Shown: piece by piece, positions 1,159-28,324 of the stretch | How the letters are laid out: each line of letters starts with the position of its first letter | Position numbering within the stretch: the first letter of the stretch is position 1 | Origin: a virus | Reading direction: 5' to 3' (one strand) | DNA: 33,255 nucleotides | Virus record (IMG/VR): IMGVR_UViG_3300010885_005209 | Span: 1 to 33,255 of that record | Translations under genes and position numbers: made by a program | Notes under the pieces: generated by a model | The model's input: the letters and a program-made list of their open reading frames with translations, nothing else | Databases searched by the model: none | Told to the model about the DNA's origin: nothing

Positions 1159-2487
1159 TTACTTTGGTATTGAGTAGTAACGGTCACCCGCTTTCACAAT
1201 CTTAGATCCGCGTTCTTCTTCAGCGGCCTCTGCTTTGTGAAATGTTGGGTGACTTTTTCCTTTTAGCACGACATAACTATCTTCTGGTAAACCATGAAGC
1301 ATACGTTCGTCATCCGATGTTGGAGCTACAGAACCCCAATGGCCAGCATTTTCGCCAGTTCCATTGGGTCCCATACCATAAGCTGTGGCTGTTTGATAGT
1401 CATAGTCCTTACCCCGTGGGTTAAATACCAAACCACCGTCTGCGTGACCAATATCTTCCAAGCTACGCAAATATTTATCAGTAACTTGCTGGCTTGGAGT
1501 GGTTCGAACTAAATCATAGTAGCCAGGTTCGCGCCCTTTGAACTCTTTAAATTGATTAATAAAATCTGGTATACCATGTTCTTTCGGCACTGGAGCAAAA
1601 GCTACGCCTTTATCTTCACCTTTTAAAATGTAAGGGAATGCTGAATGCAAATCTGGGCGATGTTCAATTTCATTATTTAAAGTAAACAAACGAGTCCCTA
1701 ATGAATGTGTTGGAGCACCAACAGTCATAGGGTCTGTCATCTCTTGCATAATTCCAGGGTAGTCAATAATACGGCCTTTAGTACCACCAACACCTTTACC
1801 ACTCATTAATGTAGATAAAGCCCCACGACGATTAAATGTATCGCCATATTGTGCTAAATGCTCTGGATTACCAATGTCAAAATTTTCTGGAAACAATCCT
1901 TTAGTTTCTTTTCCAGTGGCCAATGTAGAATTTATTTTTGCTTGTAATTCAGGAGTTAAATTTCCCAATCTTGATTGTCGATTAAATTCATTTGTTAACA
2001 TATCATAAACGTGCTGATTAGAATGGTGCTGTGTTTCGCCACCAATCATGGGAGTCCAAATTGCTTGATCACCAAACTTTTTATTAACGTTAACAATCCC
2101 ACTTGCTGTAGGCTTTTTTCCTACTCCCCATGCTGCTTGAGCTGCGGCGTATTCTGGCTTTTCTAATTGAAATTTTGAAAAACCAGGGCCACCTAAATCG
2201 CCTTCAGTAGAACGCATTCTATCTGATTGAGTTACATTAAGCCATTTACCCTCATGCGGAGCAAGTGCTTCACTAGCTTTTAAAACGTTAGTTGCTTTTG
2301 GTACAAATTTACTAATAGATCCCATTAAACCTGGGACCATATCCATAGCTTCTCTAGCAGCAGATTCATTTGGGGTGTAAAGCCCTTTATCCTTTGAGTA
2401 ACCAATTGCATTATCAGTTACCCAACGCTGGTGCTCTAAGTTAGCTTTAGTTTTTTCTGGCAGCTCAGCGATATAGTCGCGTGCCAT
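1159..2487 (-). CDS. Uncharacterised virion or ejected protein with C-terminal HPTF-type motif
   Basis: 442 residues from an ATG (MARDYIAEL) at 2487; a GTG at 2511 would add 8 residues, and neither start has a strong ribosome binding site. I do not recognise the body of the protein, which is soluble, polar and without membrane segments. Numbered from the GTG, the last ~100 residues carry a HADGGLVF double-glycine motif (G359-G360), a YDYQTATAYGMGP stretch, GHWGS and KGKSHPTF. This order (Y-D-x-x-x-A, GHW, then HPTF) resembles a short module that recurs at protein ends in many tailed phages. It is the last gene of the unit that starts at 13347, after ejection-type genes, so it is probably a virion or delivered protein. 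That role is inferred from position only. Confidence 0.7.
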   Translation of the reverse strand: MARDYIAELPEKTKANLEHQRWVTDNAIGYSKDKGLYTPNESAAREAMDMVPGLMGSISKFVPKATNVLKASEALAPHEGKWLNVTQSDRMRSTEGDLGGPGFSKFQLEKPEYAAAQAAWGVGKKPTASGIVNVNKKFGDQAIWTPMIGGETQHHSNQHVYDMLTNEFNRQSRLGNLTPELQAKINSTLATGKETKGLFPENFDIGNPEHLAQYGDTFNRRGALSTLMSGKGVGGTKGRIIDYPGIMQEMTDPMTVGAPTHSLGTRLFTLNNEIEHRPDLHSAFPYILKGEDKGVAFAPVPKEHGIPDFINQFKEFKGREPGYYDLVRTTPSQQVTDKYLRSLEDIGHADGGLVFNPRGKDYDYQTATAYGMGPNGTGENAGHWGSVAPTSDDERMLHGLPEDSYVVLKGKSHPTFHKAEAAEEERGSKIVKAGDRYYSIPK

Positions 2488-2537
2488 TGTGGACAGGTTT
2501 GGACCCCGCACTGGCCCGACTTTATTGAAAGTGCCAG

Positions 2538-3752
2538 CTATGCTGGCGGGAACTTTTTTGGTTCACCACCTTCCGCCATGTGCCCAGTCATGTCGACATG
2601 GCCGCCTTTGCATAAATACTCAAATTCATCTTTACTTAAACCAGCTGGCAAAGTATAGATCGTATGTAGTTTACGCTTAGGTTCTGGCTTGGGTTGAGGC
2701 GCAACATTACCACCTTTTCTATAGTTCAAGTGGTGTTGCATAATTTCTTTAGCCATTTCGGGCATACTGATACTTCCGCCGTTAGCGCGTTTCTGTGGAT
2801 ATAATCTAGTTCCTTCTAATACACTTTGACCAGGTAAAAGATCACGTTTTGGATTTAATGTAGCGTCACCTAGTTGTGATGGAGATAATGCCATACCAAT
2901 AGGGCCCATAAAACCAGTTGCTAAATCAAATGCAGTGCCTGGCAAATCTGCAGCTGTTGCAGAACCTATCATTTGAGCACCCACTGGAGCCAATCCCAAT
3001 CCAGTTGCAATTGCACGAACTTTTTTAGGCAAGAAGGGTGCAGCACCTGCTAAAACACCAGCTCCAATACTTCCAGTACCGGCGGCAACATCCCCAACTC
3101 CTTCTCCATTTGTTATTTGTTGTAGTCCACTACCAATATCATATCCAGCTAATGCACTACGCAACGGTAATCCAGTGTGTTTCTTTAAATGGTAGCTCGG
3201 TGTTTTAACATAATCTTTTGGATCATATAATCCGGGTTTGGCAGGTGACCCCGGCGTTTTTTCTACATGACTCAATACTGTCTTTCCAGTTGCTGGATCT
3301 ACTTTGTAAATTTCTTTAAAAGCATCTGGAGTAGCCTCTGCAGCACTAATTTTTTTTATTGCTTCCCAAGCCTGCTGTGAATTTTCTACAGGTATGTTAC
3401 TTAATCTTGATAGCTCTTTAGCTGGCATATCAAATTTAGCGCCCAGCTGACTATTGATGTAGTTTTGAACACCCGGATGTGCTGATTTACTATCCAAAAC
3501 ATCATATAACATTTTTGTTTTTTGACCAGTGATTGCAGCACCTGCAGCACCACCCCCAACAATTAATCCAGCTTGATTGGTTGTGTACGGTGACTTTTCT
3601 CTTTTATATTCTGGGCGTTCATTTGAAATTAATTTTTCTGGAACTTCAGTACCCGACAACGCACTAGGAGTAACTGTCGTTGGAACAGCTTGTTCTGAAG
3701 GCTTATGAGTTTGAAGTTCTGACGGAACTTCTTCGTATTGTTTATCTGACAT
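2538..3752 (-). CDS. Putative internal virion / ejected protein with GG motifs
   Basis: 404 residues, not recognised as a named family. The first ~60 residues are hydrophilic and Pro/Glu rich. A short Gly/Ala-rich hydrophobic stretch follows (residues 61-75), and a longer small-residue hydrophobic region spans ~200-290 with GAGVLAGAAPFLP and GLGLAPVGAQMIG, which could interact with a membrane. The basic C-terminal third holds four double-glycine motifs (G325-G326, G347-G348, G383-G384, G395-G396) of the kind seen in other proteins of this phage. The start overlaps the stop of the M15-domain gene by one base (TAATG), suggesting coupled translation. Membrane-active segments and its place after the giant protein fit an ejection protein, but this is inference. 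Confidence 0.7.
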   Translation of the reverse strand: MSDKQYEEVPSELQTHKPSEQAVPTTVTPSALSGTEVPEKLISNERPEYKREKSPYTTNQAGLIVGGGAAGAAITGQKTKMLYDVLDSKSAHPGVQNYINSQLGAKFDMPAKELSRLSNIPVENSQQAWEAIKKISAAEATPDAFKEIYKVDPATGKTVLSHVEKTPGSPAKPGLYDPKDYVKTPSYHLKKHTGLPLRSALAGYDIGSGLQQITNGEGVGDVAAGTGSIGAGVLAGAAPFLPKKVRAIATGLGLAPVGAQMIGSATAADLPGTAFDLATGFMGPIGMALSPSQLGDATLNPKRDLLPGQSVLEGTRLYPQKRANGGSISMPEMAKEIMQHHLNYRKGGNVAPQPKPEPKRKLHTIYTLPAGLSKDEFEYLCKGGHVDMTGHMAEGGEPKKFPPA

Positions 3753-5800
3753 TATAAATAAATAGATTTTCCGTTAACAATAATATATGGCTTTTTATTT
3801 GCATCTTTTTTAACAAAATCAGCCTCCGGTACATCAATAAACTTTTTACCCACATCTTTAGCAGCGTCTACTTTTGAACCAAATTCATAGTAAGGAGTTT
3901 GTTCAAATTGAGCTGCAGTACCATTGGGATTTTGTCTTGACCATTTATCAAATTCTAATCCCCGGTAGTAGGCTGTGCGAATATCTTGCATATTTTTAGC
4001 CAAATTTTGCATATGTGAAGAATACGTTGTAGCAATACCCACACCTTTAGCTGGTTCACCTAATGCTAAGTCAGCGTTGGTAAGTCGTCCGCCAGCGCCT
4101 TGAACTAAGTTTTTAGCCCAAGCTGCTTGCGCAACAGCGGCACCTTGCTCAATATTTTTAAAATCGGTATAAGAAGGATCAGATAAATATGTACGTGCTA
4201 AAGTATGGTTTTCTGTTTTATCGCCTTCCGCTTTAGGAGTAATTTTAGCACCTAAAACACCAACCCAATCTCTACCACTCAGATTAAATACATTCTTTTT
4301 GTCTTTTGAAGTTTTTAATAATCGGTCATATTCATCATACGTTTTTGAAGTTGTTCCAATACTTTGTAAGTATTCGTTTTTCATATCAGCGTCTTTTTTA
4401 GCTAATTCAGTTGACGCCGTTCCAAGACCTTGAGCTTTTTGAGTTTGTCTTGCTTTCCAAGCATCCATAGCAGCAACATAGGCATCTTTGTTAAGACCAT
4501 AGTTTTTAGCTTGTGGCATTGGTTCCATGGCTTGAGCAGACTGAACCGCAGATGGCCCTTGAGCAGCAGGAGCTTGAGCAACAGGAGCTTGAGCAACAGG
4601 AGCTTGAGCAACAGGAGCTTGGGCAACAGTGACAGGGGCTTGACTAGTTGAAACTGGCAAACCACCAGATACAACGGGAGCTTTAACTTGAGGAAGCCCA
4701 CCAACTGGTGCAACCGGAGCTTGTTCTACTTGAGCTGGTTTATTTACTAACTCCCAATGATTAGGATCTCTAGCAACAGTTTGCTTAAATCCCGCATCAA
4801 TCAGTTGTTGACGTTGTGCAGGGTTAATTGGGCCAGCGTCAATTGCATAACCTGTTTGGTGTTTGCTTGTCCCTGGGAATGCTACAGGAGGACCCGAGTA
4901 ATTTGGTTGTTTGCTGTTTAAATAGAGGTTGTATTGTTTATCCCAATCACGATCACCGCTAATAAGCGGAATGTTTAATGCAGCTGCAATTTGAGCTGCG
5001 TTCCCACGTTCTCCAGTGGTTGTGGGCGCACTTAAAGACGAAGTTGGAACATTACCTTGTAGTGGTCCAGCAGCGCCAGTTTTAGTGCCCCCAAGTTCTT
5101 TATATGTGGCAATTTCAATTTCTCGTTTTAAATCTGGATCCATGTTCATCCATTGATTAGGCGTAATTGAAACAGGGCCTTTGGTTGGATGCATATAAGT
5201 CTTTGCGGTATTGGCTTCCGCGTCGTATTGAGCTTTAGAAGAACCAATAATTTGTTGCTCGTTATATTTGTCCATTAATGCCCGTTGAGCGCCAATGTTA
5301 TTATCTAGATGGGTACCCATTGCATTTAAAACTTGTTGCTGTGCCGGAGTAACACCACCAACACCACTGACAATACCATTTTTAAAGCGAGCAATATTTG
5401 CCGCTTCAGCTGCAGCTTGTTGTTGTGCAATTTTAATTGCAGTTTGCTGTTGGGCAATATCGTATAAAGCCTTACGGTCAGTATTAGCTGCTTCTTCGCG
5501 CAATGCAAACGCTGGAGATTTATTATATTGGGTCCAAGCCTGAGCGTCTTTCATTCCCTCGTTAAACATACGTAAAGGATTGTTAATTTTATTAGCTAAA
5601 TTTTGCATATTTTGCAAAACATTAGTTTCAGTTTCTTTATCCATTAAGTAATTAGGATTAGCTTTTGTATAATCAAGCGCACCCTTAGATTGCTTTGTAT
5701 TGGCGTACTGTACGGGCAAACCTGGAGTTAATCCGCTTTGAATTAAATCTGTGTTTTGGTCCGCTAATGATGATGTGCCTGCGTCGTTTGGACTTGACAT
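3752..5800 (-). CDS. Virion-associated protein with M15-type peptidoglycan peptidase domain
   Basis: 682 residues. Residues ~265-352 look like a VanY / D,D- or L,D-carboxypeptidase domain of peptidase family M15: SGDRDWDKQ at 281-289 matches the family SGxRxxxxQ motif, SKHQTGYAID gives zinc ligands H314 and D321, and NHWEL gives H348 with E350 near the expected catalytic place. The N-terminal part is Gln/Ala rich with predicted helical segments (100-140). After the peptidase comes a Pro/Ala linker built of VAQAP repeats (~393-410), then a helical C-terminal half of unknown fold. It lies among ejection-type genes rather than in the lysis cassette, so it probably cuts peptidoglycan locally during DNA entry. 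A good ribosome binding site (AAGGAA) precedes the ATG. Confidence 0.8.
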   Translation of the reverse strand: MSSPNDAGTSSLADQNTDLIQSGLTPGLPVQYANTKQSKGALDYTKANPNYLMDKETETNVLQNMQNLANKINNPLRMFNEGMKDAQAWTQYNKSPAFALREEAANTDRKALYDIAQQQTAIKIAQQQAAAEAANIARFKNGIVSGVGGVTPAQQQVLNAMGTHLDNNIGAQRALMDKYNEQQIIGSSKAQYDAEANTAKTYMHPTKGPVSITPNQWMNMDPDLKREIEIATYKELGGTKTGAAGPLQGNVPTSSLSAPTTTGERGNAAQIAAALNIPLISGDRDWDKQYNLYLNSKQPNYSGPPVAFPGTSKHQTGYAIDAGPINPAQRQQLIDAGFKQTVARDPNHWELVNKPAQVEQAPVAPVGGLPQVKAPVVSGGLPVSTSQAPVTVAQAPVAQAPVAQAPVAQAPAAQGPSAVQSAQAMEPMPQAKNYGLNKDAYVAAMDAWKARQTQKAQGLGTASTELAKKDADMKNEYLQSIGTTSKTYDEYDRLLKTSKDKKNVFNLSGRDWVGVLGAKITPKAEGDKTENHTLARTYLSDPSYTDFKNIEQGAAVAQAAWAKNLVQGAGGRLTNADLALGEPAKGVGIATTYSSHMQNLAKNMQDIRTAYYRGLEFDKWSRQNPNGTAAQFEQTPYYEFGSKVDAAKDVGKKFIDVPEADFVKKDANKKPYIIVNGKSIYL
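4569..4628 (-). repeat. 15-bp tandem repeat, four copies, encoding VAQAP
   Basis: Four back-to-back 15-base units (ggagcttgagcaaca on the + strand). The first three are identical and the fourth differs by one base (gagcttgggcaac). They encode a Pro/Ala linker in the M15-domain protein. The near identity suggests recent expansion by slippage, and the number of units could vary between related phages without changing the frame. Confidence 0.9.
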
Positions 5801-5809
5801 AATTATTCC

Positions 5810-6694
5810 TTAATCGTTTCCGTAGTAATACTGACTTGAACCATCTTCGCTAGGTGCCGTTACCTCTTCGTACGGAGAGGCTGGGCTTGGCATGTCGCTG
5901 TTAGTTGGTATTCTGTTAAACAAGTCCATTAATTTAGGACCAACTTGTGTTAAATTACCAAGTCCTAAACTATTTAATACACTAGTGCCTAGTCCAGCTA
6001 CTGCACCAATTTGACTAAACGGAGACATTTGATTTTGCTGTGCTACGAGACCTGGAACACTAACGTCATTAACTAAGTTTGCGTAACTTCCAAGGTTCTG
6101 GAATGGAGCGTTCATTTGAGTATTACCAGCTGTCATTTCGGTGCCCAGTTGTTGGTTAAGTACGTTACCCAATCCAGTGCCCGCCTGTACGCCAGTGGTT
6201 TGATTCTGTAGCGCAGACTGCATTTGCTGAGCCGATAAGTTAGCGAATGCGTCAGCTTTAGCTTTATTAAGCGCAGTTTCTCCGCGCAAACTGCCAAATT
6301 GACCAGACGCAATATTAGCACCTTGAACCGGGGCTGTATAATTTGGCATCAATTGGTTTAGCTGTTGGTTTTGTGCTTGAAACAATCCGCCCATTGCCGT
6401 GTTGGTATTTGGGGTTACTTGGCCGTTGGCTCCAGTAATCCAAGGATTAGCCGCACCCTGAGCAATTTGACCTAACGCGCCTTGGGCTTGGTTAAATGAA
6501 TTATTAGGGTTTTGCAAAGTATTAATAGCCTGCTGACCCACCGTATTTTGAAAAGTTGGCGCATCGGCAAGTGCCTGATGTGCTCCACTTACAATACCTT
6601 TTTGCGCGTCAGTATACCACGCTGGTAATGTAGTTTCTTTTACGTATGTATCGGTTAAAAAGTTATTTAAACCAGTTGATCCTGTTGTTGCCAT
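5810..6694 (-). CDS. Putative internal virion (ejection) protein
   Basis: 294 residues, rich in Gln, Asn, Ala and Gly, with an unstructured acidic C-terminus (…SSQYYYGND). The middle (about 130-190) is a helical stretch around FGSLRGETALNKAKADAF, of a kind I associate with internal virion proteins of podovirus-like aquatic phages. A hydrophobic Gly-rich segment lies at about 225-250. Its place between the giant 2217-residue protein and the M15-domain protein matches the slot of small ejection proteins (T7 gp14, P22 gp7 type), although there is no residue match I can show to those proteins. The start overlaps the upstream stop by one base (TAATG). Confidence 0.65.
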   Translation of the reverse strand: MATTGSTGLNNFLTDTYVKETTLPAWYTDAQKGIVSGAHQALADAPTFQNTVGQQAINTLQNPNNSFNQAQGALGQIAQGAANPWITGANGQVTPNTNTAMGGLFQAQNQQLNQLMPNYTAPVQGANIASGQFGSLRGETALNKAKADAFANLSAQQMQSALQNQTTGVQAGTGLGNVLNQQLGTEMTAGNTQMNAPFQNLGSYANLVNDVSVPGLVAQQNQMSPFSQIGAVAGLGTSVLNSLGLGNLTQVGPKLMDLFNRIPTNSDMPSPASPYEEVTAPSEDGSSQYYYGND

Positions 6695-9600
6695 TATGCT
6701 CTCACTTTACGTTTTGCTTCTAATAAGTAACCTAGCGCACCCTTACTATCTGGTGGCAGTCCATTTTTATTTGCACGGGTCTTGTGCGATCTAATTGTCT
6801 TTAAAAATTCATCAAGTATAGATGCACCGCTGTCATTACTTCCATTGCCTAAAGATGATACCACATCGGCAGGTATTACAAACTCGCCGTTTGCTAACAT
6901 TGCTGGAATGCTATCACTAGTTCCGTCACCGTCACCTTGAACGTAACGATTTTCCATGGCGTTTAAACCACCTTCACTAAAGAACTGTGGGTTGTGGTTT
7001 ATAACTTCTCCGCCAGTACTTAGCGCTGGTGCGTTAGCCATTGTATTTAATCCAACAAAAGGCTTATGAAATGAAAATTGCTTACCCTTCATTTTGGTTT
7101 CAGCAAAAGACGGATCAAACGCAGGATTTGTATCTTGAGCACCACCAACTGCCATGTGAACAACACCACCCTGAGCAGCGGCTAAAATTTGCTTTAGTAC
7201 TGCATCTGGATTATATATAGGCTGTGCGTATGTATACTGTTGCAAGTCATACTTCCCTGGTAAGGCAGGATCTGTGGCCTTACCTTTAATAAAATTAGAA
7301 ACCGGAGAGTATGAAGCGTCACCTGGGCCGACACTCATATTTGAACCTGAGCTGGCACCTGCAGTGTTTGAACTAGAAGGATTCCCACCAGTTGCTAACC
7401 GCATTAGGCCACCTTCTTTAGCGGCTTTTAGTTGCTGTTCTAAATCCATTGGTAAAAACGGAGGGCTTATATAATTTTCCATAGGTATCACATTACTTGG
7501 TTTAGTTGAATCAATAACACGCATTAATTTGTCTAAAGGCAGTGCGTGCTTTCTACCTTTTGTAAAGTCTGCTATTAAATCCGGGGGAACTCGTTTTTTA
7601 AACTTACCCTTATCCACTGGTTTCTTCTTTATCGGTGGAACTAATGTTGGTACGTTTGTCTTTGGCCCTTTTGACGGTTTTGTCGGGTCTTCCGGTGTAA
7701 CTATAACAGGTGGGCTTATTGGTTCTATACTCGGTGGAACTAGTTCTAACGGCGGTTTAACTTTCGATGGCGGATTAATTGATGTAATAACCGACGTCGG
7801 TGTTAGCGGGTCCAACACAGCAATATCCACTGGCACAGGTGTTGGGCTTACTGGCTCTAATTGTGTTAAGGTTTGTGTCTGAGGCTGTATTTTAGTTAAA
7901 TCTTTTAATGCAATATCCGTTTTCGTTGGATTTTCTGTTGCAAGTTGTGTTGCAGTCTGCGTTTGCGGCGCTGTTATAGTACTTGTCAATGACCGTGGAT
8001 CGGTAATTGTTTTTAAATTTGCGTCTGTATCTGTTACGGTCTGTGTAACCGGTTTTCCGTAAATCAATTCTCCGCGAGTCTTTGTTGCTGTATCTGTATC
8101 CGTCTGCGTATCTGTCTGTGTATTAGTTTCTGGTGCTGTTAAATCCGTACCAAAAAGAGTATTTTTGTTAAATAGTCTGTTAATGTCTGGTTTTTCAGCA
8201 AATGGCAATCCCTCAGTTTTTTGTGTTTCTGTGCTTCTTTGCATTTGAGGCACTAAATCATCATCACCCAATTTAAGACCAACCAAGTCGTTTAACGTTT
8301 TTTTAATATCTTCTATTAAAACTTGGTTGTGCTGTATGTCGTTTTTATTGCTAGTGGGAGTTTCACCAGAAGATTTAACAGAAGTAATATTACTTCCAAA
8401 ATGAACAAATGGATTACCCCTTGCTTCACTGTCTGAATTTAATATTTCTACAGGAACCATACCTACTTTTGGAGTTGTTTCGTATGACGCTGTTCCTAAT
8501 TTAGTTCCCGCTTTTAATGGGCCATAATCTTTTGTTAATTCAACCGATGTTTTTCCAGTGGAATTTCCTTCTGAGTCTACTTCAAACGTAAATTTTACGC
8601 CCATATCTGGGTTTTGAAAATACCCCCCAACGTTATTAACAGTCGTCGGATCCATGAAAACAGTTTTTGAAGACCTCGGCTGAGTTTCTTGCCCAGTACC
8701 CGGCATATTGGAAGGTTCTCTAAATCCTACTGTAGTTCCGTCTGAATACTGTGAGTATGTAGACCCACGTGATGTTTCAAACTGGTAAGTTGCACTACTT
8801 GAAGTTTCAATTACTGGGGTGTGTGTTGCCAAAGCTCCAAACACGCCAGAAATAGTAATATCATTTCCAGCGGCGTCAGTTCCCAATACTTTATTAGGAT
8901 CTAACTTTCCTGCTTCCGTAGTGATGTTGTTATTAATTTGAGTTACCAACTCAGATCCAATAGTTTTAATCGCCATTGAATTTGCCTGGTCTGCAGGAAT
9001 ACCAGTTTGTTGCAACGTCTGCGAAATTGTATCTATTGTATTTTGAACATTAACCATCTGTTCAGCAGAAGGTGCTGGTAATAATCTCTGCGGCCCTTCT
9101 AATAACTTAGGCGCTTCCCAAGAAAACTGGCTTTCAGTTTTCGGTGGTGCTAACTTTAAAAATTGATTTGTGTCTACTTCAGCTTTTGAATTTGCAAAAC
9201 TTGCAATAACAAGTTGGTTAACTGCTGAAACAGCGCTAATTGGTGCATCCATGGCGGCATTAGTATTCATCTTATTAAGATTAAAACTAAAATTAGCCAT
9301 TGAATCTTTTGGATCGCCAGCAACCACAGCAATATCGCGTACTCCGGTATTTAGGAAAGAACGGGTCCAAGCCCCAACATACGCAGCTGTGGCAAGTCCT
9401 GCCATTCCTTTTGTAGTGAACTCTACAATATCTCCAGAAAGTTGACGCATGATAGCTGCATCAACATGGCCCATGGTTGCTAAAGTTATGAAACCCTGTG
9501 CTATGCCACTGGCTACTGCAGGCGCAACTGCGTCTTCGTGACTCACCTTTTTAGCTCGTAAATCGTCGTAGGATATTCCCAAACCACCAAGCGTGGCATC

Positions 9601-12600
9601 TAAAGTATCAAGTGCCAACTCTGTACCGATTGCAATTCTTAATGCGTTAAAACTTCCAGCAATCTTAGCGAAAAACCCAGCGGCCCCAGCTATGCCCATA
9701 AACATTGTGTCTTGAAGAATTTCTGGGCCAGCTATTTTAACAAACGCGGCGGGATACTGTAAGTACGCCTTAATTGCCATTAATTCTTTTGTGCCCGCTG
9801 GTGCGTCTTCCACCATTTTCCTAGCAAGTGCGTAACCATCGTCCATTGCTTTTATTACAGCTGGGGGCACATTTTTATTAGCAAAATCATTAACTGCTTT
9901 GCCTGCCAAATACATGTCATTTTCTCTGCCATATGGTGAAATTAAAAGAGCAGAAAAATTTTGTATTTGTTGACCTATCATGGTAACCGCAGCCCATTGC
10001 ATCACACCGGGTGCGTATTTAGCCACATCAACAAGCGCGTCCATTACCTCTTTTGCACCGGTTAAAATATTTGGTTGTCCCGGTTCCGCGTTAGGTGATA
10101 TAAAACTTTCCATTGACTTTTGAACAGCGTCAAACGTTGGAACACGGCTTTTAATATCTTCTAAACTTGGTAACTCTATTGCTGAAATATTTTTAGCTAA
10201 ATTGTTTGCAGATGATTCTACTGTATTAGAAAGCCTATCAATAAATCGTTTTGTGCTGCCCTCAAACATTGGGGCTGTGTCCTTAGCAAAATCTATAGCC
10301 TCTTGTAACGTCCTAGTTTTTGGTGTTAAACCTTCGCTTAAAACTTGCATAGCCGACTTAGGCGGCGCTTCTGGTGTAGCAGCAGAAGGAGGCGGCGCTA
10401 AGGCAGTTGTGTACTGTTTTCCGTTCCATTCAAACGCTTTAGCACCAGATGCCCTAGCTTCTTTAAACGCATCACCAAAATTGTCCGCAGTAGATACAAT
10501 TGTCTTATCTTTTGAAACAGAACCCGTTGATATATAATTAGTATAGGCGTCTGCTTTATCTTTAGGAATTTGGTATAAATCTTGCAAATTACGAGAAATA
10601 TCAGTTTTTGATAATCCTTGAGCTTGCATTTCTTTTGTAACGTATTCTAAATTCTTTTGGTTATCGCCAGTTAACAATTTTGCAGCATTTAAAACACCAA
10701 TTGGGTCACTAGAATTATTTGCTAATTTTTCTATTACATTGTTAGCAACAGTATTTTGGTAATACCCTTCTGCTGTTTTTGTGTCTATATTATATATAGC
10801 TGCTAAATTAGATACAATATCTTGTCTTGGTATGTTTTGGTCAACCATTTCATTGGTAACAATCCGCATATTTGAAATTGGATCACCAGTCCAATTATTT
10901 TGTGCTGCAAACATACCCAATGGATCTTTAGATGCATTTACGTATGGATCAACAAGACCGCGTTGTAACACCGTATCTACTGCACCGCTAGTAAGTCCAA
11001 CATTTTCTGTAAAGTTAGTTGGGTTTAAGGCGGCACGCTCAGCAGCAACTTCTCTTGCAGTATCAATAAAAAATCCAGCCACTAAAGATGGCATGTTATT
11101 CATCACTGCAGTTTGTACGTTTTGACCTTTTAACAAAGCGCTTGTTGCTATTTGACCTGCGGCCTGTGCGGCTCTTATTGCTGCCTGTAACGCATCTGGG
11201 TTTATTTGCTTAACTATGTCCCCTGCGTATTGCCCAACGCTACTAGCAGCTAAATTAGTAAACAACTCTGTCATGAAATTTTCTGAGCTTATTTTTCCAG
11301 CTACTACTGAAGCAAAAGTCATTGAAATTGTTCTGCCAATTACATCCTGTACATTTTTAGTGGCTTCTGCAAAACTAAATGCTCCCGGAGGTATTCCCAT
11401 TGCATCTGTTATTGACTGTATAGTAGCCTCGCCAACAAGGTTGGTTGCTACTTGACCCACTCCAGCGCTTACTAATGAACCCATACCACCAGTTACCGCG
11501 CCTATGATAGCACCCTTAGCAGCTGCTTGTGCTATGTCTCCACCGGTGCCTGCAGCCATTATTGCACCTGTAGCCGCCATTGTCATTGCCGTCGTTGCAG
11601 CTGCTGCGGCGGCAGCTCCTGCGGCACTAGTTCCAAATGCCGTTGCAAGTGCGGGTCCAAATTCGGCGGACACAACCGGGCCCATTGCCCAGCCAACAGA
11701 GGCCATAACAATTGCAGACGTTATTTGGAAACCAATTTGGTTTAAACCAGTGAAACCACCTGGGTCTTGTGGTGTAATATCTTGAATTGTAATTGGTAAT
11801 TTTGAATCTTTAGTAAACAGTAAGTTACCAGTTTCTTTATCTACCAAGAATTCAGGCGTAACTATTGGAATTCTAACACCACCACCAAGATCAATTGAAT
11901 CTTTTCCACCATACTCACCACCAGAGTACACCGTATTACGATAACCCATTCGTTGGTTTGCAATACCAGCGGGGCTAGTATAAGAGGACATTGCGGGCAT
12001 AGCAAATATTCCGCTATCACTAACAACAACTGTTTCACCAGTTGGGGTTACGTAGACCTTATAGTCTCCAGTAACTCCCATTTCACGGGCGCCTCTTGCA
12101 GCTAAATTAGTGTAATACTCGTTGCCCTTCATATCCGGTGTTACTGGTGTTGCACCTGCAGTTACCTTATCAATAGCAAGTTTATTCATTTCTACTTGTT
12201 TTTGATACGCTTCTGAATCTGGTCCGTTTACTGCTTTTTCTCTATCACTTGTTGGGTTTCCGTCAGCGTCTCTCCAAAGATAAATATGGTTAGTTGATGT
12301 TAACTGACCAGTTTCTGGATCATACTGTGCTGCAGTTGGAAGCTCAGAATACTTTATTAATTTACTTTGATATTCGTCACTATTTATAATACCGGCTTTA
12401 ACCTCTTCAGGTGTCTTGTCTTTCCATGTATCTAATCCGGTTTGATCCGCTGGACGGTCTAAGTAATATTGGTAAAGTGCGTTCACATCTGTCGGATGTG
12501 GCATTGACTTATACTCATCACTGGCCATAATACCTGCCGCGACTTCCTCTGGTGTTTTACCAGCCCATGCAGCTATTTCTCCTTGGCTTGGGGTGCGGCC

Positions 12601-13347
12601 AAGATTGTTCCTATAAAGATAGCTTGTAACAACAGGCGCAAATTCTGCGCTTGTTATAATTGATTGTTTAATTTCATCAGGTGTTTTACCAGCAAAAGTA
12701 GCTAAAGCTCCTGCATCTGGATTACGACCTAAGTACTGGTTAAAAAGTGAAGTTGTGTTATATGTTGAATACTCTGGACTGGCTTTAAGCGCATTGGTAA
12801 CATCTTGCGTTGACATATTAGCAAAAGTTTGTGCACCAGATTGATCAACATTTCGACCTAAATATTTTAAATAAAGCGCATTTAAATCTGCAGTGTCACC
12901 TTGGCCAGGACCAGTTTGAACTGGTGTGGCTGCATTTTGTGATGGTGTAATATTAAAATTAGTGTCACCAGTTGGCGTTATGGGGTTTCTTGATGCATAT
13001 TCACCACTGTTTAAAATACCCTGAAGCACTGTGTTGTAGTCTTGACCAGTCCAAGTAGAAGCACCAGATTGGTCAACTCCACGGCCTAAATACTGTTGGT
13101 ATAGCTGATCTAATCCTGCTTGGTCAACACCACCACCTCTATTTGTATCGTATACTTGAGGTGGACTAGTTAAGCTGTTGTCACCACCGCCACCGCCACC
13201 ACCACCACCGCCTTGATCTGGAGCAGGGCCAGTTTGAATTGGCGCGGCATTATTAAATTCAGGAGGTGCAGCTTCAACCGTTACAGAGCTTTCCGCTGGC
13301 GCGTCGTCTACCCAAGTTGCACTGTCTCCGCTATCTACCCAACCCAT
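6694..13347 (-). CDS. Giant multidomain virion protein with DUF4214-like repeats
   Basis: 2217 residues, first gene of the unit behind promoter-like element A. Domains in order: acidic N-terminus with a run of ten Gly (46-55); five DUF4214-like repeats (about 77-119, 153-195, 198-238, 240-281, 287-328), each with a Y-L-G-R / D-x-x-G core and ending in (S/A)xE(Y/F); a very Ala/Gly-rich hydrophobic region (about 530-640) typical of membrane-inserting segments; long helical stretches with more hydrophobic patches; a Thr/Gln/Asp then Pro-rich disordered region in the last third; six double-glycine motifs from 1979 to 2127; and a C-terminal GTSDSIPAMLANGEFVIP block (2142-2159) common near the ends of phage tape-measure proteins. 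Size and position suggest the large ejection protein of a podovirus. A tape-measure protein is the alternative, but no long-tail genes are present. Confidence 0.75.
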   Translation of the reverse strand: MGWVDSGDSATWVDDAPAESSVTVEAAPPEFNNAAPIQTGPAPDQGGGGGGGGGGDNSLTSPPQVYDTNRGGGVDQAGLDQLYQQYLGRGVDQSGASTWTGQDYNTVLQGILNSGEYASRNPITPTGDTNFNITPSQNAATPVQTGPGQGDTADLNALYLKYLGRNVDQSGAQTFANMSTQDVTNALKASPEYSTYNTTSLFNQYLGRNPDAGALATFAGKTPDEIKQSIITSAEFAPVVTSYLYRNNLGRTPSQGEIAAWAGKTPEEVAAGIMASDEYKSMPHPTDVNALYQYYLDRPADQTGLDTWKDKTPEEVKAGIINSDEYQSKLIKYSELPTAAQYDPETGQLTSTNHIYLWRDADGNPTSDREKAVNGPDSEAYQKQVEMNKLAIDKVTAGATPVTPDMKGNEYYTNLAARGAREMGVTGDYKVYVTPTGETVVVSDSGIFAMPAMSSYTSPAGIANQRMGYRNTVYSGGEYGGKDSIDLGGGVRIPIVTPEFLVDKETGNLLFTKDSKLPITIQDITPQDPGGFTGLNQIGFQITSAIVMASVGWAMGPVVSAEFGPALATAFGTSAAGAAAAAAATTAMTMAATGAIMAAGTGGDIAQAAAKGAIIGAVTGGMGSLVSAGVGQVATNLVGEATIQSITDAMGIPPGAFSFAEATKNVQDVIGRTISMTFASVVAGKISSENFMTELFTNLAASSVGQYAGDIVKQINPDALQAAIRAAQAAGQIATSALLKGQNVQTAVMNNMPSLVAGFFIDTAREVAAERAALNPTNFTENVGLTSGAVDTVLQRGLVDPYVNASKDPLGMFAAQNNWTGDPISNMRIVTNEMVDQNIPRQDIVSNLAAIYNIDTKTAEGYYQNTVANNVIEKLANNSSDPIGVLNAAKLLTGDNQKNLEYVTKEMQAQGLSKTDISRNLQDLYQIPKDKADAYTNYISTGSVSKDKTIVSTADNFGDAFKEARASGAKAFEWNGKQYTTALAPPPSAATPEAPPKSAMQVLSEGLTPKTRTLQEAIDFAKDTAPMFEGSTKRFIDRLSNTVESSANNLAKNISAIELPSLEDIKSRVPTFDAVQKSMESFISPNAEPGQPNILTGAKEVMDALVDVAKYAPGVMQWAAVTMIGQQIQNFSALLISPYGRENDMYLAGKAVNDFANKNVPPAVIKAMDDGYALARKMVEDAPAGTKELMAIKAYLQYPAAFVKIAGPEILQDTMFMGIAGAAGFFAKIAGSFNALRIAIGTELALDTLDATLGGLGISYDDLRAKKVSHEDAVAPAVASGIAQGFITLATMGHVDAAIMRQLSGDIVEFTTKGMAGLATAAYVGAWTRSFLNTGVRDIAVVAGDPKDSMANFSFNLNKMNTNAAMDAPISAVSAVNQLVIASFANSKAEVDTNQFLKLAPPKTESQFSWEAPKLLEGPQRLLPAPSAEQMVNVQNTIDTISQTLQQTGIPADQANSMAIKTIGSELVTQINNNITTEAGKLDPNKVLGTDAAGNDITISGVFGALATHTPVIETSSSATYQFETSRGSTYSQYSDGTTVGFREPSNMPGTGQETQPRSSKTVFMDPTTVNNVGGYFQNPDMGVKFTFEVDSEGNSTGKTSVELTKDYGPLKAGTKLGTASYETTPKVGMVPVEILNSDSEARGNPFVHFGSNITSVKSSGETPTSNKNDIQHNQVLIEDIKKTLNDLVGLKLGDDDLVPQMQRSTETQKTEGLPFAEKPDINRLFNKNTLFGTDLTAPETNTQTDTQTDTDTATKTRGELIYGKPVTQTVTDTDANLKTITDPRSLTSTITAPQTQTATQLATENPTKTDIALKDLTKIQPQTQTLTQLEPVSPTPVPVDIAVLDPLTPTSVITSINPPSKVKPPLELVPPSIEPISPPVIVTPEDPTKPSKGPKTNVPTLVPPIKKKPVDKGKFKKRVPPDLIADFTKGRKHALPLDKLMRVIDSTKPSNVIPMENYISPPFLPMDLEQQLKAAKEGGLMRLATGGNPSSSNTAGASSGSNMSVGPGDASYSPVSNFIKGKATDPALPGKYDLQQYTYAQPIYNPDAVLKQILAAAQGGVVHMAVGGAQDTNPAFDPSFAETKMKGKQFSFHKPFVGLNTMANAPALSTGGEVINHNPQFFSEGGLNAMENRYVQGDGDGTSDSIPAMLANGEFVIPADVVSSLGNGSNDSGASILDEFLKTIRSHKTRANKNGLPPDSKGALGYLLEAKRKVRA

Positions 13348-13378
13348 TTATTAACCTTTTTAATGCACAATTGTTATA

Positions 13379-13415
13379 CCTATAATAATGCAAAAATAGG
13401 GCTCTATTCGCCCTA
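13379..13415 (-). promoter_or_regulatory. Promoter-like element A
   Basis: Read on the minus strand it runs TAGGGCG, 16 bases, then TGCATTAT and TATAGG, ending 31 bases before the giant-protein ATG. Elements B and C share the TAGGGCG box, the same spacing to TGCATTA, and the TATAGG end. This copy is 4 bases shorter between TGCATTA and TATAGG. TATAGG resembles the start-site end of T7-class promoters. A sigma-70 reading is possible but gives no good -35/-10 pair in all three copies. Confidence 0.55.
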
Positions 13416-13418
13416 TTT
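13394..13418 (-). terminator. Intrinsic terminator after the 83-residue protein gene
   Basis: A perfect 9-bp inverted repeat (AAATAGGGC / GCCCTATTT) with a 7-base loop, followed on the minus strand by a T run. It begins within the stop codon of the gene ending at 13417, and the TAGGGCG box of element A forms one arm of the hairpin, so terminator and promoter-like element are interlocked. Confidence 0.75.
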
Positions 13419-13668
13419 AGCTGCTTGGACCGTTGATAATCATGGTAAATTCTAATGCCCAGTTTTGCCATTCTGTAAACAATGTGGGGTCGGGAACTGG
13501 GTATACTGAAAACGTTGGCAGCTGAGCTACGTTCTTTGCAGTTTCAAGCCAATTCTCTTCAGCGTTGTAAGGAATTAACTCTTGCGAGTAATACATAACC
13601 AAATTGCCGTTCCAATCTTCCCAACTCATATTGGTTGGGATAAACGGAAAAAACTGTTGAAAAGCCAT
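13417..13668 (-). CDS. Small conserved virion-like protein, function unknown
   Basis: 83 residues, rich in aromatic residues and Pro (begins MAFQQFFPFIP, six Trp in total), acidic, without signal peptide or membrane segment. I do not recognise a named family. Its start overlaps the nozzle gene stop by one base (TAATG), and it is the last gene before a terminator, which places it in the tail unit. It may be a small tail component or chaperone; this is a guess from position. Confidence 0.7.
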   Translation of the reverse strand: MAFQQFFPFIPTNMSWEDWNGNLVMYYSQELIPYNAEENWLETAKNVAQLPTFSVYPVPDPTLFTEWQNWALEFTMIINGPSS

Positions 13669-15806
13669 TACGGTCTTTCGTCGCCGTACTCTGCAGTAAT
13701 TAGCAAACGACCCATTTCGTAATTGCCATCAATATCATTAGACTCAAACTTTAATCTAATTTCACGATGTTCAACACGCAAATCAATTTTGCCAGTGTCA
13801 GCATCAAACGCATAGGGGCCAGAATCTTCAGTAGTGCCACGCGCAAATTTGCGGCCTAAGATAGTTAGATTTATTTCACCCGATTGTACAAAGTCTGGCT
13901 CAATACGACGCATGTGCATGCGGCGATTAGCGCCCTCTGGGGCATCTTGAGATGGTGTGCCACCAACCCAGCTAATGTCACAAGTTGTAAAGCTAGAAGT
14001 TACTGCTGTTTCGGCAATATATGAAACTTCATTTAGACCAAACTCATGCTGCCATAATGGATAGCCACCAGTAATACCGTAGACAGTACTACCAAGAGCC
14101 GGGTACGGGGACAGTGGTTCATCTAGTGTAATTCTAGTAACACCAGGCGCTGGAACAAAAGCATTAAAAATGTGTACACTAGTTAATACTTTATACACAG
14201 TGGCCGATGGGCTTTGTGATAAAGTTAAATAGTTTCCCGGAGCAAATGTATTGGTAACGTCACCGTCGATGTACACCTGAGACGATGTAGGAGCTGGCTC
14301 ACTAGCGGGGTTTGTAATGGTTGTAAATGCTTGACTGTAGGATACGTTATAGTCCCAACCAGCCCAAATAGGTGTTGGAAAAATCTCAGTAGTCCAACCA
14401 CAAGAACGTCTAGCACCATCGGCTTCGCCAGCGTCATACCAAAGTTTATCTTTTACGTTGTAAATAATTGCGTCAGTAACTTCTGTTGCGCTGCCCCTAG
14501 GATAAAAGAACCAGATTTCATTGTAGCGTGGTACCTTAGTAGCCCATACTTTTTGGCGCTGTACAAAGTTCATGTTATCAAGCAGCCAGTTTATGTTTTT
14601 ATCATTGGCTAAAACACTTACTACGCCGTTGTACTGATAAAAACGGTCAACGCCGAGCCAATAGTACACACCGTCCATCTCAACTACTGCAGATGAAGAC
14701 ATAATAGAAATCTGGCTAGAAATAATATCGTAACGCCAATATAGCGGGGCGCTACCTGTGAACGATACGCGAATCAGTGAGTCAGTGGCCCAAAACAAAC
14801 CGGATGGTGAGTTTGTACCGCCTCGAACTGGCACGCCTTTAACAATCTTGGAGGAAGACATGTTGACTTGGTTGGCTGTTGCGCCGTTCCAATCGCTTAG
14901 TGTTTGACTTCCATAAGTAGATTCCACATGATTGTTGGCAATATAACCGTTATCACCATACACAAAAATATAAGGATAGAGTACACAAACTCCACCGGAA
15001 ACGCTGATCGGTCTGTATGTAGGGTTTTGACCCGTTGTATCAGCCAAGCCATAAAAGTTCCAAATGCCCGGCGCATCTTCTGTAACGTTACCATAAAGGA
15101 CCTGAGAAGGAACTCCGTTGTCAATGTTTGCTAAGTTTAAACCGGGATGAGCTAATACTTTTAGCTCTTCACCAGATGGGGAGTACTGTAAATCAAACTG
15201 CCATAAATGGCGGATGTCATAAGAAAACGTATCGTTTGCAATCCAAACGTTTGTTGGTGTTCCGGTATACGCTGGTGTAAATGTTACTGTCGTTACCGGC
15301 GATGCAAATGTAGGAGTTCCTACTGTTGTATAAATAGTAGGATTAGCTGATTGATCAAATATAACTTGAGTGCCAGCTGGGTATACTGAAGAGTAGTCAA
15401 CGATTGGTACGGCTGTGCTAGTTAACTGAAACGTAGTTGTAGAGCCGCCAGTTGGAACTTGCTGTGCGTAACCTTGATTAATAACAGCTGGATAGGGGCC
15501 ACTACCAACACCGAATGTTGTGCCAGTTGTAAACACATCAATACCACCAGCGTTACCAACATAAATATAGTTAATGCCGTTAAAGGCGTTGGTGACCATG
15601 CCGCGAGGAATACCATTAAACGAGCCAAACAACTGACGATAACCGCCCATTTTCTTTGGTGTGCCACGTTGAAAACGGCACCACTCTCCGTCACTAAATT
15701 CACGTGACTCAAAGATTGTACCGTCACGTTTAATACCAGGTTCTACACGAAGGGTATAAACAACGTTGTACTGTTGTGGTGCTGATTGTACTGGGTTGTC
15801 AGCCAT
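13668..15806 (-). CDS. Tail nozzle / DNA stabilisation protein (P22 gp10- or T7 gp12-like)
   Basis: 712 residues, dominated by beta-strand patterns. The N-terminus has a REFSDGEWCRFQRGTPKKMGGY segment spread over residues ~35-56, with the CRFQ-x-G-x-P-x-K-x-GG signature of phage tail stabilisation / nozzle proteins. Repeated blade-like strands follow (for example VVEMDGVYYWLGVDRFYQY and EIWFFYPRG), fitting a beta-propeller hub. An inserted Thr/Pro-rich domain lies at about 105-190 and another near 510-590. The C-terminus has a conserved-looking RRMHMRRIEPDF stretch and a strand-rich end. Its place after adaptor-type genes supports a role as the ring or nozzle closing the tail. The exact homologue cannot be decided from sequence alone. 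Confidence 0.65.
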   Translation of the reverse strand: MADNPVQSAPQQYNVVYTLRVEPGIKRDGTIFESREFSDGEWCRFQRGTPKKMGGYRQLFGSFNGIPRGMVTNAFNGINYIYVGNAGGIDVFTTGTTFGVGSGPYPAVINQGYAQQVPTGGSTTTFQLTSTAVPIVDYSSVYPAGTQVIFDQSANPTIYTTVGTPTFASPVTTVTFTPAYTGTPTNVWIANDTFSYDIRHLWQFDLQYSPSGEELKVLAHPGLNLANIDNGVPSQVLYGNVTEDAPGIWNFYGLADTTGQNPTYRPISVSGGVCVLYPYIFVYGDNGYIANNHVESTYGSQTLSDWNGATANQVNMSSSKIVKGVPVRGGTNSPSGLFWATDSLIRVSFTGSAPLYWRYDIISSQISIMSSSAVVEMDGVYYWLGVDRFYQYNGVVSVLANDKNINWLLDNMNFVQRQKVWATKVPRYNEIWFFYPRGSATEVTDAIIYNVKDKLWYDAGEADGARRSCGWTTEIFPTPIWAGWDYNVSYSQAFTTITNPASEPAPTSSQVYIDGDVTNTFAPGNYLTLSQSPSATVYKVLTSVHIFNAFVPAPGVTRITLDEPLSPYPALGSTVYGITGGYPLWQHEFGLNEVSYIAETAVTSSFTTCDISWVGGTPSQDAPEGANRRMHMRRIEPDFVQSGEINLTILGRKFARGTTEDSGPYAFDADTGKIDLRVEHREIRLKFESNDIDGNYEMGRLLITAEYGDERP

Positions 15807-17065
15807 TAAAACGTTCCGCCGCTAATAAGTGCTGCTGTAAACGTGGCTGGTGTAGATATTTGGGGATCAAATGGATTTGAGTTGTCAATGTTAATCATCT
15901 CAACGCCGTTTGCTGTTAAGCCAAGCACACCAATATTGGCCAAGTACATGCCAGTGGTGGTGTCATTTAAAAATGAAAATGACGGTGTGGCAGCGGCACC
16001 ATCGTTTGCAAAAAATGCCGTTGTGGCGCTTTGAGAAATAACATATAAGTTATTACCATCACTTAACACTAAAACAACCGAACCAGGGGTTACTGGAGTT
16101 GGTGGTTGAGATGTGCCCGATACTTCAAAAAACAGATTGTATGGGCCTAGTGTATCATTAGCCAGAATATAAATCTGTGTTGTTGCAGGCAATATAACTG
16201 TTAAGTCAGTTGTACGAGTGCCTGATTGTGCAACATAAGTTTGAATAATTGGTGCATAGGATACCAAGCTAAATGTAGCACCCACAATGGAGTCAACGTC
16301 GTAAGACGCTGATGTAAAGGTTACGTTTGATGGTGTTGCAAGTCCAACGGTAAAAAAGTTACCCGTGGATTGCTGGAACATAATAATACCTGAATCGCCC
16401 GGATTAACGGTAAGATTAGAGATATTATTTATTTGGGAAATGCCGTTAGGCACAATGTTTAACGCGCCAGTTCCGTTGTTACGGAAAGAGATAAACCAAC
16501 CCGCTGTTAATCCCGCCGTCGCTGGTAGGTTAAACGTGCCGTTGCCACCAGTCCAAACAAAGGTTGTTGCCCTGTCTGTGTTTAACGCAGTTGTTGTGGT
16601 GGAGATTGTTTGAACGTTTTGGGTAACGTTGAGCTTACCAGAAAGAGCAGCTAATCCGTAACCAGCCAATGTGGCCGCGTCAGCAGATGATGTGCCAGTG
16701 CCAAACGTAACGTTTTGCCAGACACCTGCTGTGGTGCTGTTATCAGAAAGATAAAAATAAACAGATGTGCCAGATGGTATAGATACAGAAGAACCACCGT
16801 CAAAGTCATTTACAAAGAATGTTACGGCACCAAAGTTACGGAACAAAATGTCTATACCAACAGAACCTTGTTGTGCGTTTGGTAATGTTATATTAAGCCC
16901 TGCGCCATCGGGTGTGCAGTCCATAATGCGGGCTGCAGGAACCTGAGTTGGGTTTATAACAAGGGGCCAGTATAAGTCTACATCTGCATCAAAATTAAGG
17001 TCAAAGTATGATACATCAGTTTGTTGGATGACGTCCCCAGTAAACGGCGATGTGTATGTCGGCAT
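15806..17065 (-). CDS. Tail fibre or tail-associated beta-structured protein
   Basis: 419 residues, Thr/Asn/Gly rich and beta-rich throughout. Repeated units around GWFISFRNNGTGALNIVPNG (about 190-210) and similar strands suggest a repetitive beta-sandwich or beta-helix. Near the end, NDTTTGMY…GVLGLTANG matches a short motif that is common close to the C-terminus of phage tail fibres. It overlaps the nozzle gene start by one base and follows the adaptor gene, so it may be a fibre fixed at the tail vertex, separate from the main fibre cluster at 22212-31729. The substrate is unknown. Confidence 0.65.
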   Translation of the reverse strand: MPTYTSPFTGDVIQQTDVSYFDLNFDADVDLYWPLVINPTQVPAARIMDCTPDGAGLNITLPNAQQGSVGIDILFRNFGAVTFFVNDFDGGSSVSIPSGTSVYFYLSDNSTTAGVWQNVTFGTGTSSADAATLAGYGLAALSGKLNVTQNVQTISTTTTALNTDRATTFVWTGGNGTFNLPATAGLTAGWFISFRNNGTGALNIVPNGISQINNISNLTVNPGDSGIIMFQQSTGNFFTVGLATPSNVTFTSASYDVDSIVGATFSLVSYAPIIQTYVAQSGTRTTDLTVILPATTQIYILANDTLGPYNLFFEVSGTSQPPTPVTPGSVVLVLSDGNNLYVISQSATTAFFANDGAAATPSFSFLNDTTTGMYLANIGVLGLTANGVEMINIDNSNPFDPQISTPATFTAALISGGTF

Positions 17066-17068
17066 TTA

Positions 17069-17689
17069 TTAAGGCTCCTGTACAGTCGTATTTCTATCAA
17101 TACGACGTGAATTGTCTTCTTTCTTAAGCGCAGATAATGAATCTGTGTAGTATGTTTTCCAGATTGGTAGCTTATCAATTGCCTTGAGGTAGCCTTGGGC
17201 CTGTAACAGTGCACCAAATAACATTGCTTGGGGACATTGTTGTGTAAACAAATTAGTTTGATTGGCTGTATCCAATGGCTGAACCAAGCTGTAATAAATA
17301 ATTTCTACAGGATATGAGGCATCTGGAACTGGTGCAATAGCCCAGTTGTTGTAGTCGTACTCAGCGTAATATTTTGGTTGACCGGGATCGGATTCAGATT
17401 GATATTGGGCCACATAGTCCTGTGAACGTATTAGAATTGGCTTACCGTTTACCTTCATGGAGACAGTTTTTCTCCAGCGAGTTGGCTTTTCAAGAATGTC
17501 TTGGGCGGCTAGTATATTGGTTTCAACTACAATTAACTGTAGCAGTGTCTTTAACTCAGAGGCAATTGCAGACTCAGCTAAACCAATTAAGGCCGGGATC
17601 TGGGCCACAAATTCAGCGTCGTCGCGCTCCATGTAGTTGATTATATCAGCTACTAAGTTGTCATACGTCATTACGTAAGCGGCTGTCAT
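17069..17689 (-). CDS. Head-tail adaptor protein (SU10-adaptor / gp4-like)
   Basis: 206 residues. It begins with a helical segment (MTYDNLVADIINYMERDD) and an AESAIASELKTLL helix, followed by strands ending in RSQDYVAQYQ and YYAEYDYNNWAIAPVPDASYPVEIIYYS, then a C-terminal helix. This helix–beta–helix order and the A-P-x-P-x-x-x-Y-x-(V/I)-x-(I/L)-x-Y-Y pattern are typical of phage connector adaptors that form a ring below the portal. It lies between a second connector-like gene and tail genes. I am fairly sure of the class but not of the named family. Confidence 0.7.
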   Translation of the reverse strand: MTAAYVMTYDNLVADIINYMERDDAEFVAQIPALIGLAESAIASELKTLLQLIVVETNILAAQDILEKPTRWRKTVSMKVNGKPILIRSQDYVAQYQSESDPGQPKYYAEYDYNNWAIAPVPDASYPVEIIYYSLVQPLDTANQTNLFTQQCPQAMLFGALLQAQGYLKAIDKLPIWKTYYTDSLSALKKEDNSRRIDRNTTVQEP

Positions 17690-22209: not shown

Positions 22210-22211
22210 AG

Positions 22212-28323: not shown

Positions 28324-28324
28324 G

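Follow-up and report, generated by a model that had tools for sequence, protein, structure and literature searches.

The window analysed here is a 33,255-base stretch of freshwater bacterial virus DNA (IMG/VR record IMGVR_UViG_3300010885_005209), and one long open reading frame (ORF) on its minus strand encodes a protein of 2217 residues. An initial annotation had described this ORF at 6694-13347 as a virion protein with DUF4214-like repeats, a membrane-type region and a tape-measure-like tail. The ORF itself is confirmed; two more IMG/VR contigs (G001 and G002) carry 100% identical copies of the gene. One of these two contigs is 63,708 bases long, and its two ends share a match to one 127-base segment of the window (19622-19748); it therefore probably represents a whole circular map of ~63.6 kb. 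From the N-terminus to the C-terminus, the protein contains DUF4214 repeats, an Ala/Gly-rich hydrophobic stretch, helical repeats, a Thr/Gln/Pro-rich stretch and a conserved C-terminal domain. The ORF and the conserved end of its product are as follows.

6694..13347, minus strand: putative tape-measure-like ejection protein, 2217-residue ORF, ATG start
6697..7026, minus strand: conserved C-terminal domain (residues 2108-2217), from 64 distinct sequences
6847..6945, minus strand: core of this domain, or putative 'hook' (residues 2135-2167), which aligns to the Douge and JBD30 tape measure proteins in profile searches

A tape-measure-type C-terminal domain

Viral contigs were searched with the last 201 residues of the protein. 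The search returned 181 stretches, all of which encode relatives, and the best 80 of the 181 were kept. A C-terminal domain of ~110 residues is common to these 80 loci and includes the GTSDSIPAMLANGEFVIP block that the initial annotation had picked out near the end of the protein, now placed at ~residues 2138-2155. Over the last 110 residues, the mean column identity of the 64 distinct sequences is 74%, and every one of them has a basic C-terminus (at least two Lys or Arg among the last eight residues).

A PDB search with the 64-sequence profile gave two matches, Douge gp16 (E 6.3e-9, two copies) and JBD30 gp46 (E 0.003, residues 1024-1056), and hhalign scored the C-terminal domain against JBD30 at 85.6% (E 5.6e-6). 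PHROG tape measure families are matched by all 64 members; in the 2217-residue protein, the match is restricted to the C-terminal ~40-55 residues. When a hidden Markov model (HMM) of the domain was run against 20 control proteins with filters off, three passed, namely the siphophage tape measure proteins of Nitrincola phage 1M3-16, JBD30 and JBD25. By profile search, the tape-measure-like tail is real. T5 pb2, also among the control proteins, was below threshold and was rejected as a sequence relative.

Residues 1022-1066 of JBD30 gp46 are predicted to fold into a hook, made of two helices and one short hairpin, by which the tape measure protein is anchored; residues 930-1021 are predicted to be disordered, and residues 57-929 form a putative transmembrane channel (PMC11445458). 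The C-terminal match falls within this predicted hook, and the 2217-residue protein has its parts in the same order. The JBD30 authors liken their hook to that of T5 (PMC11445458), in which the cleaved tape measure protein has its 43 C-terminal residues in a crevice of the opened hub (PMC10038345).

A fixed end on a changing body

Apart from its end, the protein varies widely. Sixty-nine of the 80 ORFs (61 distinct sequences) are uncut at the 5' side and are 276 to 2217 residues long, with a median of 806; the remaining 11 start at or near a contig edge, mostly within short repeats. The start peptide MGW... opens 10 of the 69 complete ORFs, two of the 10 being the copies of the 2217-residue protein.

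To relate this variation to that of the neighbouring nozzle, adaptor and other tail genes, pairs were drawn through a k-mer prefilter from 53 genomes with distinct proteins and nozzles of at least 600 residues. In the 33 pairs with nozzles at least 90% identical, which are not independent of each other, the adaptor has a median identity of 0.95, a 419-residue tail protein of 0.92, the C-terminal domain of 0.80 and the 294-residue protein encoded downstream of 0.57. For the body the median is 0.28, with 27 of the 33 pairs below 0.5; body identity is counted as matched residues over the longer body, and length differences weigh in. DUF4214 copy number is unequal in five of these pairs, and presence differs in two. 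Specifically, loci L061 and L077 have nozzles 95% identical and proteins of 1135 and 516 residues, with a body identity of 9%. The window and locus L018 are 94.7% identical in DNA sequence over 13190-17712, and the match breaks off at 13190, within codon 53 and shortly ahead of the first DUF4214 repeat.

DUF4214 repeats

The five DUF4214-like repeats that had been read from the N-terminal part are borne out by the Pfam profile (PF13946), which matches the protein at E 2.4e-14 and 53.6 bits in three scored stretches, over the curated cut-off of 23.2 bits. Taken singly, the repeats match at E 1e-5 to 0.11; repeat 5 alone exceeds the cut-off, and repeats 2 and 3 are weak. AlphaFold2 (AF2) confidence is given as the predicted local distance difference test (pLDDT).

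12994..13113, minus strand: repeat 1 (residues 79-118), Pfam/HMM; AF2 helices, pLDDT 75-90
12769..12885, minus strand: repeat 2 (residues 155-193), Pfam/HMM and AF2
12637..12753, minus strand: repeat 3 (residues 199-237), Pfam/HMM and AF2
12508..12624, minus strand: repeat 4 (residues 242-280), Pfam/HMM and AF2
12367..12486, minus strand: repeat 5 (residues 288-327), Pfam/HMM and AF2; best match taken singly

The pattern ascribed to the repeats, YLGR, D-x-x-G and S-x-E-Y, is present in a looser form than claimed. YLGR is exact in repeats 1-3 and becomes NLGR in repeat 4 and YLDR in repeat 5, exact D-x-x-G is limited to repeats 1, 2 and 5, and repeat 3 has S-x-E-F in place of S-x-E-Y. In the AF2 structure prediction, each repeat is modelled with at least three helices at pLDDT ~73-90, and the mean pLDDT over the whole of residues 70-980 is 54.7.

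Pfam finds DUF4214 in 17 of the 80 loci (12 of 50 and 5 of 30 records), always inside the long ORF and at no other place in these records, and a local HMM recovers the same 17 loci, with one to six copies each. The repeats are therefore an optional module. They look like one of several exchangeable N-terminal attachments, and the C-terminal anchor is the conserved part. The N-terminal 349 residues have no match in phage records. A Foldseek search of BFVD returned proteins of uncultured Caudovirales that UniProt names 'DUF4214 domain-containing protein' (best 2.5e-8); DUF4214 in phages is thus already known to databases, by name only. A literature search, beyond whose reach most subscription journals lay, found no paper on DUF4214 in phages and none describing a phage family with this C-terminal domain or its motif.

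Descriptions of DUF4214 make it a likely surface anchor both in segmented filamentous bacteria (PMC12780176) and in S-layer-like proteins (PMC11970703). On this basis, and close to the view of the initial annotation, the 2217-residue protein could be a surface adhesin, exposed on the tail and binding the S-layer, another surface protein or the peptidoglycan of the host through its repeats. We consider this unlikely, because most of the 80 loci have no repeats, family members are as short as 276 residues, the conserved part is the tape-measure-type end and the gene sits at the position of ejection genes (see below).

Structure comparison aligns the repeats, among other entries, to the phycobilisome linkers 3ohw, 3pru, 9k9w and 2ky4, with Z 3.2-3.9, under the trusted level, and a root-mean-square deviation of 1.7-3.3 over 50-55 residues. 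Similarly, a profile of the DUF4214-containing N-terminal part matches ApcE linker repeats at 0.0015 and 0.0088. These two results together suggest that DUF4214 is a linker-type helical domain, and the models point weakly to phycobilisome linker domains as its nearest structural relatives.

The central body

Three segments between the repeats and the C-terminal domain were delimited.

11455..11739, minus strand: Ala/Gly-rich hydrophobic stretch (residues 537-631), which opens a helical region extending to ~residue 770; composition and AF2
10522..10887, minus strand: helical repeats (residues 821-942); AF2, ten-residue blocks averaging pLDDT 51-82 in most cases and 48 in one
7618..8142, minus strand: Thr/Gln/Pro-rich tether, presumed disordered (~residues 1736-1910); composition

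The hydrophobic region expected after the repeats is thus found at residues 537-631. Its peak Ala plus Gly content per 100 residues is 0.48, the highest among the proteins of the phage longer than 250 residues, glycine-rich fibre proteins excepted. That this middle part crosses the membrane, as had been proposed, is plausible by analogy for an Ala/Gly-rich and predicted helical segment, but its highest 19-residue Kyte-Doolittle mean is 1.51, and the usual transmembrane threshold is 1.6. TRIC cation channels were considered as the fold of the region (Z 5.0-6.4, five entries) and not used, the scores being below the trusted level and the model of low confidence. The low-complexity threshold is satisfied in 31 of the 61 distinct complete members, yet not by the tether of the 2217-residue protein. 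Residues 960-1460 have no match in phage records or in the PDB, and their PHROG matches occur in single members at 0.012 or worse. Residues 1522-1679 match gp54 of Roseobacter phage CRP-9. This protein of 1395 residues, which corresponds to L009:10933-15120, is encoded two genes after the portal and has the C-terminal domain in an internal position (3.4e-5).

Alternatively, the 2217-residue protein could be a delivered multi-domain cargo of the kind termed 'polyvalent'-like. Its variable body would then act in the host after entry, for example against defence, and the C-terminal domain would serve merely as a packaging or exit tag. The large, exchangeable and multi-module body would suit this explanation, as would the match to CRP-9 gp54, which itself carries the C-terminal domain. 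We nevertheless regard it as quite improbable. A Pfam scan of the 2217-residue protein finds no enzymatic domain, and the Pfam families other than DUF4214 in 47 relatives are scattered, with one to four members each and no evident host-directed enzyme family.

Gene neighbourhood

The neighbouring genes used in the argument are on the same strand.

5810..6694, minus strand: 294-residue gene, start overlapping the stop of the 2217-residue gene; homologue downstream in 80 of 80 loci
3752..5800, minus strand: putative wall-cutting partner, a 682-residue protein whose residues 272-341 form a VanY-type peptidase domain; Pfam VanY 9.1e-8, over cut-off
2538..3752, minus strand: 404-residue protein of the same cassette; ORF call and synteny
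1159..2511, minus strand: 450-residue protein, last cassette gene before the convergent DNA polymerase; ORF call and synteny
13417..13668, minus strand: conserved upstream gene of 83 residues
13668..15806, minus strand: putative nozzle or P22-gp10-like 'stabilization' protein, 712 residues; matches VP1 nozzle gp16 (E 0.0046) and the 'phage stabilization protein' of ctpbd312
17069..17689, minus strand: head-tail adaptor, 206 residues; Pfam SU10_adaptor 4.8e-18

The order of genes in the loci is nozzle, 83-residue gene, homologue of the 2217-residue gene, ~300-residue gene and ~650-residue gene, which is the place of the ejection genes in P22 and SU10. Upstream, 68 of the 80 loci have the 83-residue gene, 64 the nozzle and 55 the adaptor, and many of the remaining loci are cut by contig ends. 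The 2217-residue gene lies next to the nozzle and adaptor genes and belongs to a set with a putative peptidoglycan-cutting protein, as expected of an ejection protein gene. In the 10 cassette proteins of other loci that were scanned, Pfam finds no hydrolase; VanY is seen in the 682-residue protein of the window.

The adaptor also matches PDB adaptors at 2e-4 and 0.002, its family HMM matches SU10 gp11 at 1e-9, and 'tail tubular protein A' is among the names of related proteins in phage records. Relatives of the portal are annotated 'head to tail connecting protein'. Because of the SU10-type adaptor, the nozzle and this portal annotation, the phage is, as far as sequence tells, short-tailed, a point missed by the initial annotation, and in a short-tailed phage a tape-measure-type end is unexpected. 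A true tape measure protein of a long-tailed phage, suggested by the C-terminal domain, the PHROG tape-measure matches and a weak 'major tail protein' match of a 359-residue neighbour, is very improbable given the SU10/T7-type adaptor and nozzle and a range of 276-2217 residues among phages with near-identical tail proteins, which would be intolerable for a ruler.

Several further observations concern the same region. Between the 83-residue and 2217-residue genes, a hairpin is followed by T residues (window ~13395-13418, minus strand), and close relatives have changed stems there. The terminator scan called no terminator upstream of the 2217-residue gene; with a fold script, 11 of 69 loci, comprising the closest relatives and a few others, show a hairpin of energy -7 or lower ahead of a T run. 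A hydrophobic-A/K-x-GG-x-V/L/I motif recurs among the late genes, in the window ORFs at 1159-2511, 2538-3752, 6694-13347 and 19290-20150 and in L011:15727-16719; five were found and 0.87 expected by shuffling of 55 ORFs, the motif being a post hoc choice, and two more lie in the 286-residue window ORF. The third gene past the long gene also varies strongly in length among loci, and in L061:13052-14980 and L074:13185-16049 it ends in DUF6321 (4e-19 and 1.8e-19).

Elsewhere, L011:16744-17193 (minus strand) encodes a GroES/Cpn10-like protein of 149 residues (Pfam 6.5e-6) in the head gene cluster, adjoining the portal. An ORF of 330 residues at L012:2056-3048 (minus strand; G001 22056-23048) overlaps the start of the terminase ORF and matches PHROG terminase 15 at 2.7e-10 over residues 8-231; we take it to resemble a terminase intein or Hint element. 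A 189-residue ORF at G001 28022-28591 (plus strand) has, judged by eye, the look of a sigma-70-type factor. A genome scan for the host gave 19 candidate stretches, of which one was confirmed, at the edge of one metagenome-assembled genome contig.

Interpretation

The most economical reading, to which we assign a probability of roughly 0.6, is that the 2217-residue protein acts as lead ejection (pilot) protein in a freshwater phage with a short tail, follows the plan of a siphophage tape measure protein and has a tape-measure-type anchor. It is the most economical because of precedents in P22, in SU10 and in mosaic exchange. Escape of P22 from SieA exclusion maps to the ejection proteins gp16 and gp20, which count with the most variable parts of the gene cluster for the virion, and the divergence of the body beside conserved tail genes observed here is the pattern described for them (PMC10883804). 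The five ejection proteins of SU10 exit the head, and an extension of the nozzle by them has been proposed (PMC9509320); mosaic exchange of domains between ejection proteins has been reviewed (PMC8954989). From the sequence families, gene order, conservation and divergence observed in the 80 loci, we infer the ejection of the protein, its hook fold, its channel and its location in the virion, and thereby the 'virion protein' label of the initial annotation.

As an ejection protein, the 2217-residue chain would lie in the virion within the head or tail channel, with its invariant C-terminal domain docked to the tail, at the nozzle or the portal-adaptor channel, via a JBD30-type hook. On infection, the chain would be drawn out, and the Thr/Gln/Pro-rich tether would bridge the tail exit and the outer envelope. 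The Ala/Gly-rich helical segments of the body may build a conduit through the envelope, to which the 294-residue protein would contribute, and the VanY-type neighbour would open the wall. The DUF4214 repeats, at the opposite end from the anchor, would be an exchangeable docking module.

Several results weigh against the assignment as an ejection protein. The C-terminal HMM matches none of 12 ejection proteins (three of P22, five of SU10, gp20-24, and four of T7, gp13-16), and the domain has no sequence link to T5 pb2, though the T5 hook is the one seen by cryo-EM. The P22_portal family was not found in any of the three records scanned, the nozzle HMM reaches neither SU10 gp17 nor P22 gp10, and the 359-residue neighbour has a weak match to PHROG 'major tail protein' (0.0028), to which a PDB search gave no backing. 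The AF2 model of the compact member L075 has bridge residues and two helices, one short and one long, in the hook region, which is compatible with a hook without proving one, and the confidence there is low (pLDDT 40-77). The mean pLDDT is poor both for the whole of L075 (56.7) and for residues 70-980 of the 2217-residue protein (54.7), and neither model retrieves anything at E 0.001 from the PDB with Foldseek. Finally, the Kyte-Doolittle scan finds no classical transmembrane helix in the 2217-residue protein, because its highest 19-residue mean remains under 1.6.

A broader and more speculative idea, which we hold tentatively and think rather doubtful, is that the tape measure hook is one docking element for genome delivery in long- and short-tailed phages alike. 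The hook would serve as the socket, and the ever-replaced body as a plug-in conduit matched to the envelope or exclusion system of each host. The linker-like DUF4214 repeats would thread or brace ring-shaped partners (the head core, nozzle or conduit rings), with no binding of the cell surface.

The ejection protein assignment would connect, at the level of sequence, the tape measure proteins of siphophages with the pilot proteins of a short-tailed phage; the two are usually compared by function only. Because one part is fixed and the rest variable across 80 syntenic loci, the role of the hook is directly testable. Uncultured freshwater phages would also display the kind of variation in ejection proteins that has until now been a topic for P22 relatives and for superinfection exclusion.

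Comparison with known systems

Gp46 of the Pseudomonas siphophage JBD30 aligns to the core of the domain at residues 1024-1056 and has the same succession of hydrophobic body, disordered stretch and hook. In contrast, the tail of JBD30 is long, the hook of gp46 is followed by a further coiled coil, and the available part of its description does not mention DUF4214 (PMC11445458). Gp16 of mycobacteriophage Douge contains two copies of the core motif, which is internal and not terminal, and Douge is a long-tailed phage of a mycobacterium (PMC13033339).

Two phage proteins occupy the orthologous position. Caulobacter phage GB2A gp065 (~580 residues), annotated 'tail length tape measure protein', has the C-terminal domain at 3.8e-16, and ctpbd312 UOF78444 (639 residues; L010:13639-15558) has two tandem copies at 1.7e-34. 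Unlike the 2217-residue protein, both are much shorter, and Pfam at E 0.05 finds no DUF4214 in them. The repeats themselves are shared, by the BFVD Foldseek match and through database names only, with the phage entries that UniProt names for DUF4214. They also resemble the phycobilisome linkers (ApcE and the rod linkers) by profile and weak structure alignment, although those are cyanobacterial antenna proteins.

The ejection proteins of P22 (gp7, gp20 and gp16), T7 (gp14-16) and SU10 (gp20-24) have no detectable similarity to the C-terminal domain. In these phages, as in the window and its relatives, the genes follow those of the nozzle, several genes are involved, a known or putative wall-cutting partner is present and mosaic variation is strong.

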